From positions 1-64,000 of the forward strand of contig JACQYS010000019.1 of the NCBI GenBank assembly GCA_016208105.1: a stretch of 64,000 bases of DNA, written 5' to 3'. The notes below the pieces were generated by a model. It was not told where the DNA came from. It ran no database searches and saw only the letters and a program-made list of their open reading frames with translations. Position numbers and translations under genes: made by a program. The stretch's first letter is position 1, and every line of letters starts with the position of its first letter. This stretch comes from Desulfovibrio sp. Its GTDB lineage: Bacteria > Desulfobacterota > Desulfovibrionia > Desulfovibrionales > Desulfovibrionaceae. This document shows, piece after piece, positions 18,158-64,000 of this stretch.

Positions 18158-18829
18158 CTAGAGATACATGCGGTTGGCTTTCTTGCGCGCCGAGCGGCCC
18201 AGCAGGTAGCCGAAAAGCCAGCCGCCGAAGAACACTCCCGCCCCGGCCAGGAACCACTTCACATCGGAAATGTCCCGCAGGGTTTCGTTCTCGCGCTTGA
18301 ACTTTTCCACATCCTGCTTGGCCGATTCGCTCGCTGCCTTCATCTCCTGAAAGGACTTGGTCATCTCGGCCACGTTGGAATTGGCTTTGGAGAGAATTTC
18401 GTACTCCGACTTCAGCTTGGCGTGCTCGCTCTGGATGGAGGAAAGGTTCCTCTGGAGGTTCTTGTTCTCCTCCTCGAACTTGCCCACTATGGCTTCGACC
18501 TTCCCCGCCTTTTCCAGCATCTCGGAGTTGCGCGACTTGAATTCCTCAAACTGGACCTTCACGGGCGTTTCCGAGGACAGGTACCGCTTGAGCACCCACC
18601 CTTCCTTACCAGATTCCGTCCGGACAAGGGCCCATTCGCCCTCTTCCTTTATCTTCTCAAGCTTCGCCCCGCTTTTGGCCATCTGGACGATCTTGTGCTC
18701 CAAAGAAGGCCCGGTGCGCACAGTAATCTCCTGCACATCGGACACAAACAACTGCGGATCCGCAGCCATCGCGGGGAAACACAGAATCGCCAGTATTGCG
18801 GCGCTTTCTCGTAAAACACGCATGATCAT
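18158..18829 (-). CDS. SH3 domain, coiled-coil, membrane-anchored protein (YgiM-like)
   Basis: From the ATG at 18829 (or 18823) the product is 223 aa. A signal peptide (ILAILCFPAMAA) is followed by a bacterial SH3 domain (VRTGPSLEHKIV to GWVLKRYL, about 30-90), then a long coiled coil (about 95-180, repeated E/K/L heptads), then one transmembrane segment (FLAGAGVFFGGWLFGYLLG) and a basic tail. This is the layout of the TIGR04211/YgiM family, periplasmic proteins anchored at the C-terminus. The function in the envelope is unknown. The longer open frame upstream has no coding character. Confidence 0.8.
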   Translation of the reverse strand: MIMRVLRESAAILAILCFPAMAADPQLFVSDVQEITVRTGPSLEHKIVQMAKSGAKLEKIKEEGEWALVRTESGKEGWVLKRYLSSETPVKVQFEEFKSRNSEMLEKAGKVEAIVGKFEEENKNLQRNLSSIQSEHAKLKSEYEILSKANSNVAEMTKSFQEMKAASESAKQDVEKFKRENETLRDISDVKWFLAGAGVFFGGWLFGYLLGRSARKKANRMYL

Positions 18830-18982
18830 CCGCCGGTATAGTCTATGATGAAATGCCCAAGGGAACTCCGGCCACAGCCGCCTTGAACGCCAAAGAATGA
18901 GATTACCCAAGAATGAGTCGCAGTTCAAGAGCTTCCATTCTCCACCATTGCCTACAACGATAGCTTTTAGTAGAAGGCTCCC

Positions 18983-19198
18983 ATGGACGACCAACAAAAC
19001 GCCGCATACTACAAAAGGCTGATCAACCAGGCTGGCAGCTACCACGAATTGGTGATCCTGCGTTCCCGCTTTTTCGGCCTCATGGAACGCGCGCTCTCCA
19101 AGGAAGACTGCCTGGCGGTAAAGGACCTCTGGGCCGCCAAGGCAGGGGACGAGAACCTGCCCGTCGCTCCCCAAAAGAGCGGCCCAACTTCAGAGTAG
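18983..19198 (+). CDS. small hypothetical protein (71 aa)
   Basis: Not recognised. The product has an amphipathic helical middle (YYKRLINQAGSYHELVILR, then FFGLMERALSKEDCLAVKDLW) and a short disordered tail. One cysteine. It has an A/G-rich stretch (AGAAGG) before the start. It lies between the divergent SH3 protein and the convergent selenoperoxiredoxin gene, in an otherwise empty 390-base gap, with normal codon use. Confidence 0.5.
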   Translation: MDDQQNAAYYKRLINQAGSYHELVILRSRFFGLMERALSKEDCLAVKDLWAAKAGDENLPVAPQKSGPTSE

Positions 19199-19218: not shown

Positions 19219-19707
19219 TCAGCCTTTTTTCAGCGTCTCGAGAACGGCCAGCACTTCCGCGGCGTGGCCTTTGCTGGCAGCTTTCGCCCAACGTTTTGCC
19301 ACCACTTTGTCCGGGCCGATCAGCACGGTCGATCGGACCACCCCCTCAGACTCCTTCCCGTAGAGCTTCTTGACCCCCCAGGCGCCCAAGCCTTTGAGTG
19401 CTTCGGTGGCGGGATCGCTCAGAAGCGGTACCTTAAGCCCTTGCTTGGCGATAAAACCGTGGTGTGACTTGAGCGAATCCTTGGACAAGCCATAGACCTC
19501 TGCACCGAGTCTCGAGAACTCTCCCATACGCTCTGAAAACTCCAGAGCCTCCACGGTTCAACCCGAGGTGGAATCCTTGGGGTACATGAAAATGACCACC
19601 CATTTCCCGGCCAGTTCACCCAGCCGTACGTTTTTTTCTCCTCCACCCGGGAAAGCGGCCGTCAAGGAGAAATCAAACGCCGCGGTTCCTTCGTCATATC
19701 CTGCCAT
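19219..19707 (-). CDS. selenocysteine-containing peroxiredoxin (PrxQ/BCP type)
   Basis: Read from the ATG at 19707, which has AGGAGA upstream, the frame stays open through the stop except for one TGA at 19558-19560, codon 50. The context is YPKDSTSG-[TGA]-TVEALEF, exactly where PrxQ/BCP proteins have YPKDxTPGCTxEA. The TGA replaces the peroxidatic cysteine, so selenocysteine is the natural reading (162 aa in all). Nine bases downstream GCTCTG (19545-19550) pairs with CAGAGC (19532-19537) around a seven-base loop, in the place and shape of a bacterial SECIS element. SelA and SelB are encoded in the same window. The usual nearby resolving cysteine is absent. Peroxide reduction is the expected role. 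Confidence 0.9.
19532..19550 (-). promoter_or_regulatory. bacterial SECIS-like stem-loop
   Basis: On the minus strand the stem GCTCTG/CAGAGC with loop GAGTTTT starts nine bases after the in-frame TGA, so the apical loop lies about 18 bases from the TGA. The length and the G in the loop fit bacterial SECIS elements bound by SelB. Confidence 0.65.
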
Positions 19708-19779
19708 GATTCATCTCCTGTAAAGCAGCGCCTCTTCGCGGAACTTCACATACTCCCCGGAACAGGCTATGTAATTAGT

Positions 19780-20577
19780 ATGTTCACTGAACTTAAAGGC
19801 TTCAATCCCGAATACCTTGTGGTGTTCAGCATCATATTCGGTTTGTCCCTGGCCATACCGGCCTTGCTGTACGCCCTGCGCCGCCCAACCCTCAAGGCTA
19901 CCGCAGCTTCCCGAAAGCTGATCTCCTCGGAGATATTCTCTCTTTTTGCCACAGTATACGCTTTTTTTCTCGGTTTTTCCATTGTCACCTTGTGGGGAAC
20001 GTTCGTCTCAGCCAAAAACTCCGTCAACTCTGAAGCCGGGGCTGTGCTCGTGTCATACCACTTGTCCATGCCTCTGGAGAACTCCCGGGGATTCCGCCAG
20101 ACTCTTGAAGACTACACGAAAAGCGTCGTGGACGACGAGTGGCCCATAATGGATGGGCAGCGTTCCATGAGTGAACAAAGCCTCAGGCATTTAGACGAGA
20201 TATGGGAAGCCTTTTACCGCATGAAACCGGCTGACAAGGAATCATACTCGCTCTATGCCTCTGTGGGGCAGTCCCTGGCGGAGATCAGCCGTCACCGCCT
20301 TTCCAGGGCCCAAACCCTGTCGGGCAATCTCTATCCGCCTGTGTGGGTAATTTTATGGTTTGGCGTATTCGGGGTTTTCGTCGGGCTGCTGCTTACCAAC
20401 CCGGAACAGACCGGATCCCAGGTGGCCATGGAGGTCATCATCGTCTTTCTTATTCTGTCCTGCGTCTACTTCATCGTGGACATCTCCACTCCCTTTTCCG
20501 GAGTGTTGAACGTCTCCCCCGAGCCTTTCCAGAACATCCACGCCAAGATCATCACCCTGCAGGGGGTGCATCCATGA
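19780..20577 (+). CDS. DUF4239 membrane protein
   Basis: A 265-aa inner-membrane protein with two hydrophobic hairpins: about 13-33 and 50-70 at the N-terminus (VVFSIIFGLSLAIPALLYAL, SLFATVYAFFLGFSIVTLWGT) and about 185-230 at the C-terminus. A soluble helical domain lies between them. The F-x-L-G-F and conserved N-x-V-N-S-E-A (about 79-86) motifs are the DUF4239 (bestrophin-like) pattern. Possibly an anion or ion channel; the activity is not established. The next small gene starts 22 bases later. Confidence 0.72.
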   Translation: MFTELKGFNPEYLVVFSIIFGLSLAIPALLYALRRPTLKATAASRKLISSEIFSLFATVYAFFLGFSIVTLWGTFVSAKNSVNSEAGAVLVSYHLSMPLENSRGFRQTLEDYTKSVVDDEWPIMDGQRSMSEQSLRHLDEIWEAFYRMKPADKESYSLYASVGQSLAEISRHRLSRAQTLSGNLYPPVWVILWFGVFGVFVGLLLTNPEQTGSQVAMEVIIVFLILSCVYFIVDISTPFSGVLNVSPEPFQNIHAKIITLQGVHP

Positions 20578-21024: not shown

Positions 21025-21882
21025 TTACCAGAAGAGATCCCCAACCATTTCACCCTTCCGGGCCAACGAGAATGCCGCTCGTGCCAGGGCCTCAATGGCT
21101 GAGCGTCCTTCATCCCCCACGTCCAGGCTGAAGGGCGTGACGAAGGTGTCGATATGCGCCGCCGTCACTTCGGGCGAAAGCTCCTGGGCGTTACGCGCCA
21201 CGAACTCCCGGCTCGCCTCCGGGTTATTCCAAGCGTGTGAAAGGCTCGCGCGGATGGCCTGCGAAACAGCACCCGCAACTCCCGCCCCGAGCGTTCTCTT
21301 CACGGCGATAACGCCCAATGGCAGGGGAAGGTTGTAACGGCTCTCCCACCATGCTCCAAAATCCTCCACCAATTCAAGGCCCTGCTGTGCATAGGTAAAG
21401 CGCCCCTCGTGGATGACCACGCCGGCGTCCACATCGCCCCGGGCCACTGCGGGCATAATCTCATCGTACCGGAGCTGCACCCGCCGTCCCGGCACCCCTG
21501 CCATCTCGGCAAGGAGGGCTGCCGTGGTCCGAGCCCCGGGCAGGGCCAGAGTTTCGAAGGCCATCTGCCGGTCTCTGCCCTGGCGCGTCACCAAAAGCGG
21601 GCCGCAGCCACGGCCAAGAGCCCCTCCGCAGGACAGCAGCCGGTAGTGCGCGCTGGCGTCCGCCACGGCCGCGAGTGAAATCTTCACGATATCAAGCTCG
21701 CCCCTGGAGGCCAGGCCGTTTAGCTCCTCCACGTCGGCCATGACCAGCCGGGAAAGGCAAAACCCAGGCTCAGACTGAATCAGGCCGTGGATGAGGGCAT
21801 GGAAGATGAAGGTGTCGTTGGGGCAGGGAGAGATACCCAGACTCAGTTGACGCGGGATGCTTGGGGGAGTATCGGTGACCAC
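21025..21882 (-). CDS. mqnD: 1,4-dihydroxy-6-naphthoate synthase MqnD
   Basis: A 285-aa protein starting GISPCPNDTFIFHAL, the diagnostic MqnD opening. The catalytic-type aspartate region reads VEELN, then GELDIVKISLAAVAD, and GVVIHEGRFTY is present. It turns cyclic dehypoxanthinyl futalosine into 1,4-dihydroxy-6-naphthoate, the naphthalene ring precursor of menaquinone. The start is GTG at 21882, with AAGGTG before it, overlapped by the palindrome at 21874-21891. It is divergent from a TetR gene that leads mqnE, mqnC and mqnA, so the pathway is held in two facing operons. Confidence 0.92.
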   Translation of the reverse strand: MVTDTPPSIPRQLSLGISPCPNDTFIFHALIHGLIQSEPGFCLSRLVMADVEELNGLASRGELDIVKISLAAVADASAHYRLLSCGGALGRGCGPLLVTRQGRDRQMAFETLALPGARTTAALLAEMAGVPGRRVQLRYDEIMPAVARGDVDAGVVIHEGRFTYAQQGLELVEDFGAWWESRYNLPLPLGVIAVKRTLGAGVAGAVSQAIRASLSHAWNNPEASREFVARNAQELSPEVTAAHIDTFVTPFSLDVGDEGRSAIEALARAAFSLARKGEMVGDLFW

Positions 21883-21891
21883 CCGGTCACC
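21874..21891. promoter_or_regulatory. palindrome between mqnD and the TetR gene (likely operator)
   Basis: GGTGACC-accc-GGTCACC covers 21874-21891, a perfect seven-base dyad. It overlaps the mqnD start and ribosome site and lies 16 bases before the TetR start codon at 21908. This is a fitting operator for the adjacent TetR regulator, which would then control both halves of the menaquinone set. The short gap (25 bases) leaves little other room. Confidence 0.5.
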
Positions 21892-21907
21892 TTATCCGGG
21901 AGTCACC

Positions 21908-22552
21908 ATGGAAGCAAGCGCCACATTTCAAAACATCCCACCCGACAAACAGCATCGGGTCCTTTCTGAAGCCCAGAGGGAATTCGCCGAGCGCGGTTTT
22001 CTCGGTGCCAGCATGAACCGGCTGGCCGCACGCCTCGGCATCGCCAAAGGGTCCATATTCAAATATTTCGGAAGCAAGGAAGGGCTCTTCGCCCGGGTGT
22101 TCGCCGGGGCAGTGGAGAGCTTTTCCGGATTCCTGCGCCAGGCCAGGGACGAAACAACGGGGCAGCCGCTGGCCATACGCCTGGAACGCCTGCTCGTGGT
22201 GGGCACGGACTTCGTACGCACCCACCCGGACATCTACCGCATTTACCTCAAAATGCTTTTCAACGAGGACTTCCCCCTGCGAGAGCGATTTCTTGGCCAG
22301 GTGCGTGCCTTGTCCGCCAAGTTTCTCACGCCCCTCATCGAACAGGCCAAGGCTTCTGGCGAACTTCCGGTCACCGTGAACGTTGCCCTGGCCGTATTCA
22401 TCCTGGACGCGGTGCTCGACCGCTTCGTGCAGGCCCAGGCCCAGGCCTGGATGGACACGGGCCTTAATCTGTCTCTTGATGATCCCGAAACGTCGCGCCG
22501 GGCTGCAAAGAGCCTGGCCGCCATGCTGGCTGGAGGTTTCAGAGTTGGATAG
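21908..22552 (+). CDS. TetR-family regulator in front of mqnECA
   Basis: A 214-aa TetR protein. The N-terminal HTH is EAQREFAERGFLGASMNRLAARLGIAKGSIFKYFGSK in outline (about 21-57), with the canonical G-F-x-G-x-S and K-G-S-x-F-x-Y-F motifs. The C-terminal domain is helical and would bind an unknown ligand. GGGAG precedes the start. Its stop overlaps the mqnE TTG start by eight bases, so the regulator and the pathway are co-transcribed. A dyad just upstream suggests autoregulation. TetR control of a futalosine pathway is not something I can name from known systems. Confidence 0.85.
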   Translation: MEASATFQNIPPDKQHRVLSEAQREFAERGFLGASMNRLAARLGIAKGSIFKYFGSKEGLFARVFAGAVESFSGFLRQARDETTGQPLAIRLERLLVVGTDFVRTHPDIYRIYLKMLFNEDFPLRERFLGQVRALSAKFLTPLIEQAKASGELPVTVNVALAVFILDAVLDRFVQAQAQAWMDTGLNLSLDDPETSRRAAKSLAAMLAGGFRVG

Positions 22553-23639
22553 ATCCTATATCGCCTCTTTCGGGCTTGAACCCGTGCTGGACAAGGTTCT
22601 GGCAGGAAAACGCTTAACCCTCCCCGAAGGCCAGGCCCTTTATGACTGCCCTGATCCGCATATACCAGCCCTCATGGCCGGTTACGTCCGGACCAGGCTG
22701 CACGGAGACCGCGTACACTATGTGGTGAACCGCCACGTCAACCCCACCAACATCTGCGTCAACCGCTGCCGCTTCTGCGCCTATCGCCGAGACGAAGGTC
22801 AGGAGGGCGCCTACGTGCTCACCCCTGAAGAAGCCCTGGCCAAGCTCGAGGCAGCCGGACCGGTGGACGAGGTGCATATCGTGGGCGGGTGCCACCCGGC
22901 CCTGGGTCTGGCCTATTACGAGGACCTGGCCGCCAGGGTGCGCCAAGCCTACCCCCAGGCGTCCATCAAGGCGCTCACCGCCGTGGAAGTGGATCACCTG
23001 GCCAAAATTTCAGGCGTTGGCATTCCCGAGGTCCTCACCCGCCTGAAGACAGCCGGCGTGGACATGCTGCCGGGCGGCGGCGCGGAGATATTCGCCGAGG
23101 GCCCGCGCAAAACCTTGTGCCCTGAAAAGATCGATGGGGAAGCCTGGCTGTCCGTTATGGCCCAGGCCCATGCCACCGGGCTTCGCTCCAACGCCACCAT
23201 GCTCTTCGGACACCTGGAAACCACGGCCCACCGCCTGGAGCACATGGACGCCCTGCGCAGGCAGCAGGACGCCACCGGGGGATTCGTCTGCTTCATCCCC
23301 CTGCCCTACCTGCCGGGCAACAATCCCCTGGGCGTGGAAGCACACGGACCCACAGCCATGGACGTGCTGCGCACCATGGCCGTGGCCAGGCTCATGCTGG
23401 ACAACATCCCACACATAAAGGCCTACTGGGTGATGCTTGGGCTCAAGCTCTCGCAGCTGTGCCTTTCCTGGGGAGCGGACGACCTGGACGGCACCGTGGT
23501 CGAGGAAAAGATCGGACACGACGCCGGCAGCGAGTCGGCCCAGGCCCTGACCACCCAGGAGCTCGAACAGGCCATACGGGCCAGCGGTTTCACCCCTGTC
23601 CGGCGCGACGGGCTCTTCCGGGAGGCCAGCCATGTTTGA
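22545..23639 (+). CDS. mqnE: aminofutalosine synthase MqnE (radical SAM)
   Basis: A 364-aa radical SAM enzyme with the cluster motif C71-x3-C75-x2-C78 (NICVNRCRFCAY), then HIVGGCHPALGL and DMLPGGGAEIFAEG in the barrel. The strings NRHVNPTNIC and the substrate-binding PGGGAEI are MqnE/CofH-type. It joins 3-carboxyvinyloxybenzoate (from MqnA) to SAM-derived adenosine to give aminofutalosine. I use the TTG start at 22545, with GGAGG at 22532-22536. The start overlaps the end of the TetR gene and the 3' end overlaps mqnC by eight bases. Confidence 0.9.
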   Translation: MDRSYIASFGLEPVLDKVLAGKRLTLPEGQALYDCPDPHIPALMAGYVRTRLHGDRVHYVVNRHVNPTNICVNRCRFCAYRRDEGQEGAYVLTPEEALAKLEAAGPVDEVHIVGGCHPALGLAYYEDLAARVRQAYPQASIKALTAVEVDHLAKISGVGIPEVLTRLKTAGVDMLPGGGAEIFAEGPRKTLCPEKIDGEAWLSVMAQAHATGLRSNATMLFGHLETTAHRLEHMDALRRQQDATGGFVCFIPLPYLPGNNPLGVEAHGPTAMDVLRTMAVARLMLDNIPHIKAYWVMLGLKLSQLCLSWGADDLDGTVVEEKIGHDAGSESAQALTTQELEQAIRASGFTPVRRDGLFREASHV

Positions 23640-24708
23640 TCACGCGCACATCCTTGCCGTGGCCGGAAAAATCAAGACCGGGCAGCGGATCGACGCACAG
23701 GATGCCCTCACCCTGGCCGAATCCGCCAGTCTCCCCCTTTTGGGCAGCCTGGCCCACGGGGTCCGCAAGCGTCTCCACCCCTCTTCGACAGTGACCTATG
23801 TGGTTGATAGAAACGTCAATTCCACCAACATCTGCCAATGCGGCTGTCGTTTCTGCGCCTTTTTCAAGGCTCCGGGCCAGGCCGGAGGCTACACGCTTAC
23901 CCGGGAGGAACTTGGACGCAAGATCGAGGAGACCCTGGCCCTCGGAGGGCGCCAAATACTGCTGCAGGGCGGGCACAATCCGGACATGGGCCTTGCCTAC
24001 TACGAAGCGCTTTTGAACTTTATCCGCGACACCTATCCGGACATCCACGTGCATGGATTCTCCCCTCCGGAAATCGTCTACTTCGCGGGGTTGGCAGGGA
24101 TTACTCCGGCCGAGGTGATCGCCAGGCTCAAGGCGGCCGGTTTGGCCTCCATCCCCGGTGGTGGGGCGGAAATCCTGGTGGACCGCGTGCGCCAGGCCGT
24201 GGCCCCCGCCAAATGCTCCTCGCGCGAATGGCTGGACGTGATGCGCCAGGCACATCTGCAGGGACTTCGCACCACGGCCACAATGATGTTCGGCCATGTG
24301 GAGACCTGGGCCGAGCGCATAGAGCATCTTACCGCCCTGCGCGGGCTTCAGGACGAAACCGGCGGGTTCACCGCCTTTATTCCCTGGGGCTTCCAGCCCG
24401 ACAACACAGCCTTGGGTGGCGAGAAGTGCTCGCCCCAGGAATATCTGAGAGTGCTTTCCATCTCACGCCTGGTGCTGGACAATTTCGCCAACCTCCAGGC
24501 CTCCTGGGTGACCATGGGACGTGAGATCGCCCAGGTTTCCCTCTTCTACGGGGCCAACGACTTCGGCTCCACCATGATCGAGGAAAACGTGGTTGCCGCG
24601 GCCGGAGTCCGCTTCCGCATGGACGAACCAGGCGTACGCCGGGCAATTGAAGATGCAGGCTTCACCCCTCGCCGCAGGGCCATGGATTACAGCCTCGTAG
24701 AGGTATAG
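23632..24708 (+). CDS. mqnC: cyclic dehypoxanthinyl futalosine synthase MqnC
   Basis: A 358-aa radical SAM enzyme with C68-x3-C72-x2-C75 (STNICQCGCRFCAF) and the MqnC-type QGGHNPDMGL (about 113-122), GGGAEILVDRVR and HVETWAERIEHL motifs. It cyclises dehypoxanthinyl futalosine to the spiro-ring product used by MqnD. Its start overlaps mqnE by eight bases and mqnA follows after two bases, so mqnE, mqnC and mqnA form one translation unit. Confidence 0.93.
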   Translation: MFDHAHILAVAGKIKTGQRIDAQDALTLAESASLPLLGSLAHGVRKRLHPSSTVTYVVDRNVNSTNICQCGCRFCAFFKAPGQAGGYTLTREELGRKIEETLALGGRQILLQGGHNPDMGLAYYEALLNFIRDTYPDIHVHGFSPPEIVYFAGLAGITPAEVIARLKAAGLASIPGGGAEILVDRVRQAVAPAKCSSREWLDVMRQAHLQGLRTTATMMFGHVETWAERIEHLTALRGLQDETGGFTAFIPWGFQPDNTALGGEKCSPQEYLRVLSISRLVLDNFANLQASWVTMGREIAQVSLFYGANDFGSTMIEENVVAAAGVRFRMDEPGVRRAIEDAGFTPRRRAMDYSLVEV

Positions 24709-24710
24709 CA

Positions 24711-25556
24711 ATGCGACTTGGCAGAATTAGCTACCTGAACGTGCTGCCCATCTACCATCCTCTCGAGGCCGGATGGATCACACACGGATTCGACATCGTT
24801 TCCGGGCCGCCAGCCATGCTGAACGGGCTCATACGCGCCGGCAAGCTGGACCTCTCGGCTTGTTCCTCCATCGAGTACGCCCGCAACCCCAACGATTATT
24901 ACCTGCTGCCTGACCTGGCCATCGGCAGCCGCGGTCCTGTCAAAAGCGTGCTGCTCTTAAGCCGCATTCCGCCCGATGATCTTAACGGGAAACCGCTGTT
25001 GGTCACAGCCGAAACCCATACTTCAGCTGCGCTTCTGCGCGTGGTGTTGGAAAAGGTCTACAGCGTGCGCCCGGTCTTCAAGACCGCACCGGGTTCGGTC
25101 AGGCAGTCCCTGGCCATGGGCGCGGACGAACCCGCCGTGCTGGCCATAGGCGACGAGGCCCTTGCCATGCGCCACGACCCGCGCTTCCCCTATCAGCTGG
25201 ACCTGGGCGAAGTCTGGCGTGACTGGACCGGGCTGCCCTTCGTCTTCGGGGTGTGGGTGGCCAGGCGCGAGACCGCACAGAGAGACCCGGAAGGGGTGCT
25301 CCAGGCAGCGGCGCTTCTCTGCCAGGCGAAGCGTACCGGAGTGGCCGCCATTGAAGAGGTTGTCGGACTGGCTGCCTTGTCCAAACCAAAGCTCAGCCGC
25401 GGCGAGATCAGGCGGTATTTCGATCACCTGAGCTACGACCTGGGCACAAAAGAACAGGAAGGCCTCTCCCGCTTCTTCGACTGTTTGGCCGAGCATGGGA
25501 TCATTGAAACCCCTCCCCGATTGGAAATATTGAACGCCGGACCACAGGGACGTTGA
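24711..25556 (+). CDS. mqnA: chorismate dehydratase MqnA
   Basis: A 281-aa periplasmic-binding-fold enzyme starting LGRISYLNVLPIYHPLE, with SGPPAMLNGLIRAGKLDLSACSSIEYA in outline (about 30-60), the MqnA signature, and FVFGVWVARRE near 175. It removes water from chorismate to give 3-[(1-carboxyvinyl)oxy]benzoate, the first step of the futalosine route. MqnB or a futalosine nucleosidase is not in this window. No terminator is obvious in the 72-base gap to the porin gene. Confidence 0.93.
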   Translation: MRLGRISYLNVLPIYHPLEAGWITHGFDIVSGPPAMLNGLIRAGKLDLSACSSIEYARNPNDYYLLPDLAIGSRGPVKSVLLLSRIPPDDLNGKPLLVTAETHTSAALLRVVLEKVYSVRPVFKTAPGSVRQSLAMGADEPAVLAIGDEALAMRHDPRFPYQLDLGEVWRDWTGLPFVFGVWVARRETAQRDPEGVLQAAALLCQAKRTGVAAIEEVVGLAALSKPKLSRGEIRRYFDHLSYDLGTKEQEGLSRFFDCLAEHGIIETPPRLEILNAGPQGR

Positions 25557-55715: not shown

Positions 55716-57128
55716 GTGAACACCCTCTACCGACTCCTGCCCTCCATGGACCGTGTGCTCGCCTCCCTGGACGGAGACCCGGCTCTTGCCGCCGCGCCCA
55801 GGCCCCTCATCCGCGAAGCGGCCCAGGCCTTCCTGGACGGGCTGCGCGAGGAGATCAAATCCGGGATCGAGACCGATGAATCCCGCTTGGCCTGGGAGAC
55901 GCTCGCCCAGCGTATCGCCTGCTTTACGCGCGCCTACGTGCGCCCGCGCTTTCGCCGGGTGCTGAACGCCACCGGTGTGGTTGTGCACACCAACCTGGGC
56001 CGTTCGGTGCTGCCTCCGTGCGCCGTGGATGCAGTGGCCAGCGCCTGCCGTTACTACTCCAACCTGGAGTTCGACCTCGCCACCGGACAGCGTGGCAGCC
56101 GATACAGCCATGTGGAAGGGCTTCTCTGCAAGCTTACCGGTGCTGAGGCCGCCCTGGTGGTCAACAACAACGCCGCTGCCGTGCTCCTGGTGCTGGAGAG
56201 CCTGTGCAAGGGCCGCGAGGTTGTGGTCTCGCGCGGGCAGCTGGTGGAGATAGGCGGATCGTTCCGGGTGCCAGAGGTCATGGCCAAAAGCGGGGCCAAC
56301 CTGCGCGAGGTCGGCGCCACCAACCGCACCCACCTGCGCGACTATGAGGCGGCCATCGGCCCCGAGACAGCCGCGCTCATGCGGGTGCACACATCGAATT
56401 TCCGGATCATCGGCTTCACCAAGGAAGTGTCCCTGGAAGAGCTGGCCGCTCTGGGATACGAGCGCGGCCTGCCGGTCATAGAGGACCTGGGCAGCGGCAC
56501 GCTCTACGATTTCGCCCAGGCCGGGCTTCACGGCGAGCCCATGGTGCCCGAAGTGGTGGCCGCAGGCGCGGACGTGGTCACCTTCTCGGGCGACAAGGTT
56601 TTAGGCGGGCCCCAGGCCGGAATCATCGTGGGCAAGCGCGAGTACCTGGACATTATCCGGAAAAACCAGCTCACCCGGGCGCTGCGTATCGACAAGATGA
56701 CCCTGGCAGCCTTGGAGGCCGTGCTGCGACTCTACCTGGATCCAGAGATGGCCCGGCGCGAAGTGCCCACGCTGGCAATGATCTGCGCCTCCCCGAAGGA
56801 GCTTGCCGAAAAGGCCAAAAGCCTGGCCAGAATACTCAAGCGCACGGTAGGCGAGCACTTCGACATCTCGCTTCGTGCCGGTGCCTCGCGTGTTGGAGGC
56901 GGAGCTTTTCCGGAAAGGGATTTGCCTACCACGCTGGCATGCTTATATCCGAAGAATTCGTCTCTCACCGTGGACGAGCTGCGCATGCGTCTATTGGATA
57001 CCGACCCGCCCCTGACCGGCCGGGTCGAGGATGGCCTTTTCTGCCTGGACCCGCGCACGCTTTCCAGGGACGAATTTGCTCTTGTCGCTTCGGCCCTTGG
57101 CCAGGCTGCATTAAAGAATCACTGCTAA
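55716..57128 (+). CDS. selA: L-seryl-tRNA(Sec) selenium transferase SelA
   Basis: A 470-aa PLP enzyme. It shows VVVHTNLGRSVLP (about 88-100), the R-G-S-R-Y-S-H-V-E motif (127-135), the pyruvoyl-/PLP-binding EDLGSGTLYDF (256-266) and the PLP lysine K294 in TFSGDKVLGGPQAG. SelA turns seryl-tRNA(Sec) into selenocysteinyl-tRNA(Sec). The GTG start has AGAGGATA upstream. With selB at 63096 and the TGA-containing peroxiredoxin gene at 19219-19707 it shows that the organism uses selenocysteine. selC and selD are not seen here. Confidence 0.94.
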   Translation: MNTLYRLLPSMDRVLASLDGDPALAAAPRPLIREAAQAFLDGLREEIKSGIETDESRLAWETLAQRIACFTRAYVRPRFRRVLNATGVVVHTNLGRSVLPPCAVDAVASACRYYSNLEFDLATGQRGSRYSHVEGLLCKLTGAEAALVVNNNAAAVLLVLESLCKGREVVVSRGQLVEIGGSFRVPEVMAKSGANLREVGATNRTHLRDYEAAIGPETAALMRVHTSNFRIIGFTKEVSLEELAALGYERGLPVIEDLGSGTLYDFAQAGLHGEPMVPEVVAAGADVVTFSGDKVLGGPQAGIIVGKREYLDIIRKNQLTRALRIDKMTLAALEAVLRLYLDPEMARREVPTLAMICASPKELAEKAKSLARILKRTVGEHFDISLRAGASRVGGGAFPERDLPTTLACLYPKNSSLTVDELRMRLLDTDPPLTGRVEDGLFCLDPRTLSRDEFALVASALGQAALKNHC

Positions 57129-63095: not shown

Positions 63096-64000
63096 ATGCC
63101 GGTCATCATGGGCACGGCCGGTCACATCGACCACGGCAAGACCACACTCGTCAAAGCCCTCACAGGAATCGACTGCGACCGCCTGTCCGAGGAAAAGAAG
63201 CGCGGCATTACCATCGAGCTGGGCTTCGCCTTCATGGAGCTCGGTGGCCACCGCATTGGCGTGGTGGACGTTCCCGGGCACGAGCGTTTCGTAAAGAACA
63301 TGGTGGCCGGCGCGGCCGGCATCGACTTCGTGGTCCTGGTCATCGCGGCCGACGAGGGCGTCATGCCCCAGACACGCGAGCACCTGGAGATCTGCACCCT
63401 TTTAGGCATCAAGCAGGGTGTGGTAGCGCTGACCAAGCTGGACGCAGTTGACGAAGAATGGCTGTCCCTGGTCACCGAGGACGTCAAAACCTTCCTGGCT
63501 CCGACATTTCTAGCCGATGCCCCGTTCATACCGGTATCCGCCCACACCGGCCAGGGTCTTGACGCGCTCAAGGCGGAACTCGCCCGCCTAACAGCTGAAT
63601 TTACCCCCAAGCGCCGCTCGGACCTTGCCCGGCTGCCCATAGACCGGGTTTTCACCATGAAGGGGCACGGCACCGTAGTGACCGGCACGCTCATAGCCGG
63701 GCAGCTTAAAACTGGTGACGAAGCCATGCTTTTCCCCTCGGGCAAGCCAACCAAGGTGCGCGGCCTCCAGGTGCATGGCAACGCTTCCGATGTGGCCCTG
63801 GCGGGGCAACGCACCGCGGTGAACGTCTCCGGCCTGGAAGTGGAGGACGTTGAGCGCGGCGAGGTGCTCGCCCATGCAGGCACCCTGTTTCCAAGTCTGG
63901 CCTGGAACATGGAAATCACCTGCCTGGCATCCTCCCCCAGGGCGCTCAGGCATCGCGGCGAGGTCCATTTCCACCACGGAACCCGCGAGGTGATGGCCCG
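63096..64000 (+). CDS. selB: selenocysteine-specific elongation factor SelB (5' part)
   Basis: The window ends within the gene; 301 codons are visible. GTP-binding motifs are [13 protein letters not shown] (6-18), DVPGHE (G3) and TKLDA (G4). [14 protein letters not shown] and [20 protein letters not shown] (domain 2) follow the SelB form rather than EF-Tu, notably the R-G-I-T-I-E-L-G-F switch. SelB brings Sec-tRNA(Sec) to the ribosome at SECIS-marked TGA codons. The C-terminal winged-helix domains that bind SECIS RNA are beyond the edge. GGAG at 63086-63089 precedes the start. Confidence 0.93.

Follow-up and report, generated by a model that had tools for sequence, protein, structure and literature searches.

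A PrxQ/BCP-Type Peroxiredoxin Gene of Desulfovibrio sp. With a Probable Selenocysteine Codon at Its Peroxidatic Position

Introduction

A stretch of 64,000 nucleotides from a contig of Desulfovibrio sp. (hereafter the window) harbors a minus-strand reading frame in which an in-frame TGA occupies the codon where related peroxiredoxins carry their catalytic cysteine. The question raised by this locus is whether the UGA terminates a shorter protein, marks a damaged gene or a sequencing error, or is decoded as an amino acid and, in that case, as which one.

Results and Discussion

The Reading Frame and the Encoded Protein

The minus-strand frame from 19707 to 19219 contains a single internal stop, the TGA of codon 50 (19560–19558), and ends at a TGA. 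The first-pass annotation had described this frame as open except for codon 50 and had aligned the flanking residues YPKDSTSG and TVEALEF with the PrxQ/BCP active site, and both statements were borne out by reading of the frame. The features at the locus are as follows:

19219–19707, minus strand: putative selenocysteine (Sec) peroxiredoxin gene, 162 codons and a terminal TGA (frame, Pfam, and PDB relatives)
19715–19719, minus strand: Shine-Dalgarno-like AGGAG, 7 bases 5' of the ATG (sequence inspection)
19219–19554, minus strand: shortened ORF with a GTG start, which stands in for the real gene (mechanical ORF calling)

The mechanical ORF list shows only the last of these, an ORF of 111 amino acids with its GTG start one codon past the TGA, and the expectation that gene calling would begin there and lose the active site was thus correct.

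The read-through product of 162 residues matched the AhpC-TSA family (PF00578) at 1.9e-28, with 99.4 bits against a curated cut-off of 26. An AlphaFold2 model, built with Cys replacing Sec, reached a mean pLDDT of 92.7, and its top fold matches in the PDB were BCP/PrxQ structures. The top PDB matches by sequence and by fold were nearly all named BCP/PrxQ, the exception being 5enu, named alkyl hydroperoxide reductase. As both NCBIfam PrxQ equivalog models scored under their cut-offs (NF053650, 132.6 vs. 260; NF006960, 90.1 vs. 140), the protein is PrxQ-like and lies outside these two narrow groups. The closest PDB chains in the sequence comparison were those of Xanthomonas campestris PrxQ/BCP (5.3e-34; PDB 5iox, 5iiz, and 3gkk), which are also among the closest by fold and have the same active-site loop. 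However, the peroxidatic residue of the Xanthomonas protein is Cys, where Sec is predicted for the window protein, and its second Cys, C84 by the title of a mutant entry, aligns with Ile86.

P43, T47, residue 50, and R125 were invariant in all nine aligned sequences, and the active site follows the pattern P-x3-T-x2-U with the putative Sec at the peroxidatic position, here as T-S-G-U. In PrxQ/BCP proteins, the resolving Cys is located either in helix 2, five residues after the peroxidatic Cys, or in helix 3. None was found at these positions (helix 2, +5, or helix 3) in the window protein; the absence noted in the first-pass annotation in fact extends further, the 162-residue protein being devoid of any Cys.

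Codon 50 in Homologous Loci

Codon 50 was found to be TGC in 69, TGA in 36, and TGT in 13 of 118 loci, and no other codon occurred; the loci are the best matches per search together with 40 picked hits, many of them picked for stops, and the share of TGA is not to be read as prevalence. They comprise 69 of the 71 loci L009–L079 and all 49 of L088–L136, all chosen as full-protein matches. The two paralogues in the genome itself (L010 and L011, TGC each) were excluded, while L009 (the window gene), L072 (with a protein identical to that of L061), 10 distant Cys peroxiredoxins (L062–L071), and four longer Sec peroxiredoxins of another branch (L047–L050) were included. The survey supports the reading of codon 50 as Sec put forward in the first-pass annotation, which had named a sense codon other than Cys in relatives as the observation that would speak against it. 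On its further question of whether related genomes keep TGA or have TGT/TGC, the seven genomes of the genus are divided: four have TGA (G000, G139, G159, and G297, the last only 66% complete) and three have TGC (G081, G082, and G085).

The occurrence of TAA or TAG at the catalytic codon was also considered and rejected. Six hits with one internal TAA/TAG were present among the matches listed in the phylum search (L092 and L117–L121); in none of them did the stop fall on the catalytic codon, as it marked the end of the frame, and codon 50 was TGC in all six.

The four longer proteins (L047–L050), of 203–204 amino acids with the site FYPGDFTFVU and strong hairpins past the TGA, occur in genomes elsewhere in the family and order, with many more such hits among the matches listed. 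With their TFVU site, they look like another branch.

The Hairpin Downstream of the TGA

A stem GCTCTG/CAGAGC had been proposed to lie nine bases past the TGA, in the position of a SECIS element, and was located as part of the following feature:

19530–19548, minus strand: SECIS-like hairpin, GCTCTGGA-GTT-TTCAGAGC (19548–19530), eight pairs including one G-U, with GTT as the loop; 9 bases past the TGA

A bacterial SECIS is described as following closely on the UGA and having a guanosine in its small apical loop (PMC1088965); the stem-loop found here likewise directly follows the UGA, and its own small loop contains a G. The conservation of the stem, on which the earlier proposal had been made to depend, follows the codon within the genus. 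The eight-pair hairpin is identical in all four TGA species, whereas the three TGC species form 3, 3, and 4 of the eight pairs. In G195, which belongs to a different genus, the hairpin is retained through a two-sided change, a G-C pair taking the place of one T-A pair. All eight pairs in the exact register were observed in 5/31 PrxQ-type TGA loci vs. 1/72 Cys loci (L089), and in most of the remaining TGA loci, the hairpin lies in a different register.

A looser rule was also applied (uninterrupted stem, loop of 3–14 bases, G in the first two loop bases, score ≥12), modeled on the SECIS features given in PMC1088965 with numeric limits of our own. It was passed by 32/35 TGA homologues (28/31 on leaving out the four other-branch loci) vs. 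20/72 Cys homologues, and the scores differed with a Mann-Whitney p of 1.5e-10, uncorrected for kinship. The TGA homologues failing the rule were L041, L127, and L128; the 20 Cys homologues passing it include L014, a TGC species of the genus, with a different and weaker hairpin.

Synonymous recoding, in which the amino acids were kept and codons were drawn by the usage of 14 window ORFs, placed the same 6-bp stem at this position in 254 of 200,000 sequences and yielded an equally stable local hairpin in 2 of 5,000. The whole 45-base stretch (TGA plus 42 bases) folded as well in 258 of 5,000 recodings, and against dinucleotide shuffles, the 45-mer had a z of −2.23 (7/200). The stem and the local hairpin are thus beyond chance; the 45-base fold as a whole is not exceptional. 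Formal covariation support for the stem is weak, with too few sequences available, the one two-sided change in five sequences being matched by 105 of 500 shuffles. A search of Rfam gave no SECIS match, only two chance matches far under their gathering scores.

Two Cys homologues have hairpins of their own to report. L089 (genome G564), a TGC homologue, forms 8/8 pairs in the same register, some of them G-U, possibly as a remnant from an ancestor with Sec, or by chance. L074, grouped among Sec forms on the tree, carries a downstream hairpin TCCAGG-AGTT-CCTGGA, which may be what a Sec-to-Cys reversion would leave, or alternatively chance.

Machinery for Selenocysteine Insertion

The first-pass annotation had placed both SelA and SelB in the window; this holds in full for SelA, while for SelB only the first part of the gene lies within it:

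55716–57128, plus strand: selA, selenocysteine synthase (model match 55731–57101; Pfam SelA, 2.7e-159)
63102–64000, plus strand: selB, Sec-specific elongation factor, first part (model and Pfam), running on to contig position 64982

SelD, with an in-frame TGA of its own, is present on contig C3 of the same genome, as is a tRNA-Sec with the anticodon TCA (C23:64550–64638, 79.4 bits); a second tRNA-Sec hit on C31 scored 50.7 bits, just over the cut-off of 47. SelA, SelB, and SelD were over their cut-offs in all seven genomes of the genus, vs. 1, 2, and 2, respectively, of 14 control genomes; the tRNA-Sec model was over its cut-off in 5 of the 14. The Cys species of the genus thus retain at least SelA, SelB, and SelD, and since all seven genomes have these genes, pathway loss does not account for the choice between Sec and Cys. 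In G297, selD was matched in two overlapping pieces (C23:14992–15857), a pattern suggestive of a frameshift in that draft assembly.

Genomic Neighborhood

The gene is flanked by the following ORFs, whose Pfam names come from the window copies:

19780–20577, plus strand: bestrophin-like membrane protein, divergent neighbor
18158–19174, minus strand: SH3-domain protein, downstream neighbor, the true start probably inside the ORF

By inspection of ORF translations by eye, similar neighbors are present on both sides in L072 and L013, two of the three other Sec loci inspected; only the bestrophin-like neighbor was seen in the third, L012, and only the SH3 neighbor in the Cys species L014. A promoter and terminator scan was not informative, with a single promoter-like site (minus strand, 19981–19953; 0.5 expected) and no terminator. 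A codon-composition scan of the window for other genes with in-frame TGA was uninformative, as it missed even this gene. Elsewhere in the window, a menaquinone-biosynthesis-type cluster extends over 21025–25556, with a VitK2_biosynth domain at 21025–21882 (Pfam) and, by eye, two radical-SAM-like proteins at 22383–24708 and a further one at 24711–25556; it is apparently of the futalosine route.

Alternative Explanations for the TGA

The change from TGC to TGA requires one base, draft genomes contain errors, and three of the seven genomes of the genus do have TGC. The TGA might hence be a corrupted Cys codon in a gene that is either dead or really intact. Such an error, which the first-pass annotation had itself allowed for, or a pseudogene is rejected on the recurrence of the TGA in separate species: it is shared by four species of the genus, of which the other three are 68–72% identical to the window protein, with a length of 162 residues in each and with the sequence on both sides of codon 50 conserved. 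The hairpin, moreover, is present with TGA and unformed with the TGC of the genus, and we consider this explanation very improbable. The same conservation bears on the proposal that UGA is a real stop and that the functional protein is the 111-residue product from the GTG at 19554. That start does exist, and the ORF lists of L072 and L012 contain the same GTG-started frame; however, the product would be without the peroxidatic loop, the part before codon 50 is maintained as protein in the TGA species, and all 118 loci align across codon 50, though they were chosen as full-protein matches. A genuine stop is hence scarcely credible.

Read-through of UGA by a near-cognate tRNA is possible in general, and codon 50 could on that account be translated as Trp or Cys, both ordinary amino acids, instead of Sec. 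In the relatives examined, however, the only replacement at codon 50 is Cys, and the SECIS-like hairpin, SelB, and tRNA-Sec are all present, which leaves this proposal with a very small likelihood. By far the most probable explanation is that the locus encodes a PrxQ/BCP-type Sec peroxiredoxin in which the UGA of codon 50 is decoded as Sec through SelB, tRNA-Sec, and the hairpin, with one-selenol catalysis. Its observed basis is the frame, the homology, the alternation of Sec and Cys codons, the hairpin, and the presence of the machinery; from these, we infer Sec insertion, the catalysis, and the nature of the reductant.

Proposed Mechanism

Reduction of peroxide by a selenolate is established peroxiredoxin chemistry. 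For the Sec peroxiredoxin proposed here, SelB and tRNA-Sec would decode the UGA of codon 50 under the direction of the hairpin that closely follows it. The peroxidatic residue would then be Sec50, whose selenolate, held in place by Arg125 and the P-x3-T-x2-U loop, would attack the peroxide bond to give a selenenic acid. As the protein has no Cys, the oxidized selenium would have to be reduced by an outside thiol, which may be thioredoxin, glutaredoxin, or a small thiol, in a one-selenol mechanism.

Phylogenetic Analysis of Sec and Cys Forms

The tree was constructed from 100 PrxQ-type proteins (29 Sec and 71 Cys), with omission of L046, L102, and L136 (cut by the end of the locus or contig), the duplicate L072, and the other-branch loci L047–L050 and L062–L071. 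It requires 13 changes between Sec and Cys, at least six of them forced by well-supported branches; the placements of the long branches L041, L075, L129, and L106 are themselves unsure. A single origin of the Sec form, with the 29 Sec rows held together, was rejected on a quick tree (AU p 0.00038). Sec and Cys have thus been exchanged repeatedly across the phylum. Within the genus, the four Sec species cluster (SH-aLRT 89) beside the three Cys species, and because they group inside a mostly Cys neighborhood, a change from Cys to Sec in this genus is suggested.

The Cys at +5 was found in 0/29 Sec forms vs. 18/71 Cys forms, the remaining 53 of the latter also being without it, in a sample that starts from a query itself lacking that Cys. 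No Cys at all was present in 19/29 Sec forms, and 15/71 Cys forms have the peroxidatic Cys alone. The association of Sec with loss of the +5 Cys gave a Fisher p of 0.0013 on rows and was not significant on independent tree pairs (median p 0.5). That gain of Sec frees PrxQ-type enzymes from the resolving Cys, with a repeated switch to one-selenol catalysis and an outside reductant across this Desulfobacterota-like phylum, is a tentative idea which we consider rather unlikely.

Relation to Known Sec Peroxiredoxins

The gene adds a new member to a Sec peroxiredoxin family that has been described before. Published work already covers Sec peroxiredoxins that carry a TxxU site and are filed under COG1225 (Bcp), a point absent from the first-pass annotation. 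Tables 1 and 3 of PMC1088965 give the TxxU peroxiredoxin (Prx) as a previously known selenoprotein with 43 Sargasso Sea sequences, PMC1794560 (Table 1) counts 12 genes in bacteria and five changes from Cys to Sec, a COG1225 entry in PMC9312934 is listed with WP_011365628.1, and the motif appears as PxxxTxxU in PMC13188914. In the window gene, too, a T-x-x-U site has its TGA aligned with the Cys of homologues. Going by the descriptions in PMC1088965, PMC9312934, and PMC1794560, the likeness extends to the superfamily, the TxxU site, the bacterial SECIS, the widespread Cys homologues, and the repeated exchange of Cys and Sec. The selenoproteomes of Desulfovibrio vulgaris and D. desulfuricans, as listed in PMC1794560, are without a peroxiredoxin. 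Searches on bacterial selenocysteine and peroxiredoxin, judged by their listings, returned no title on this Sec PrxQ/BCP-type gene, and none of five peroxidase terms tried is present in the main text of PMC8318568.

Against the model NF040737, the window protein scored only 50.5 bits (cut-off 270). This model, judging from its name, we take to represent the PrxU family of the Eubacterium acidaminophilum type. PrxU is alike in being a peroxiredoxin and is reportedly selenocysteine-containing, as a 2001 title by Sohling has it.

Implications

Ordinary annotation is likely to miss or shorten this gene, which would give a wrong account of the organism's peroxide defense. A natural comparison is available within the genus, where four genomes carry the Sec form of one gene and three the Cys form, with SelA, SelB, and SelD in all seven.
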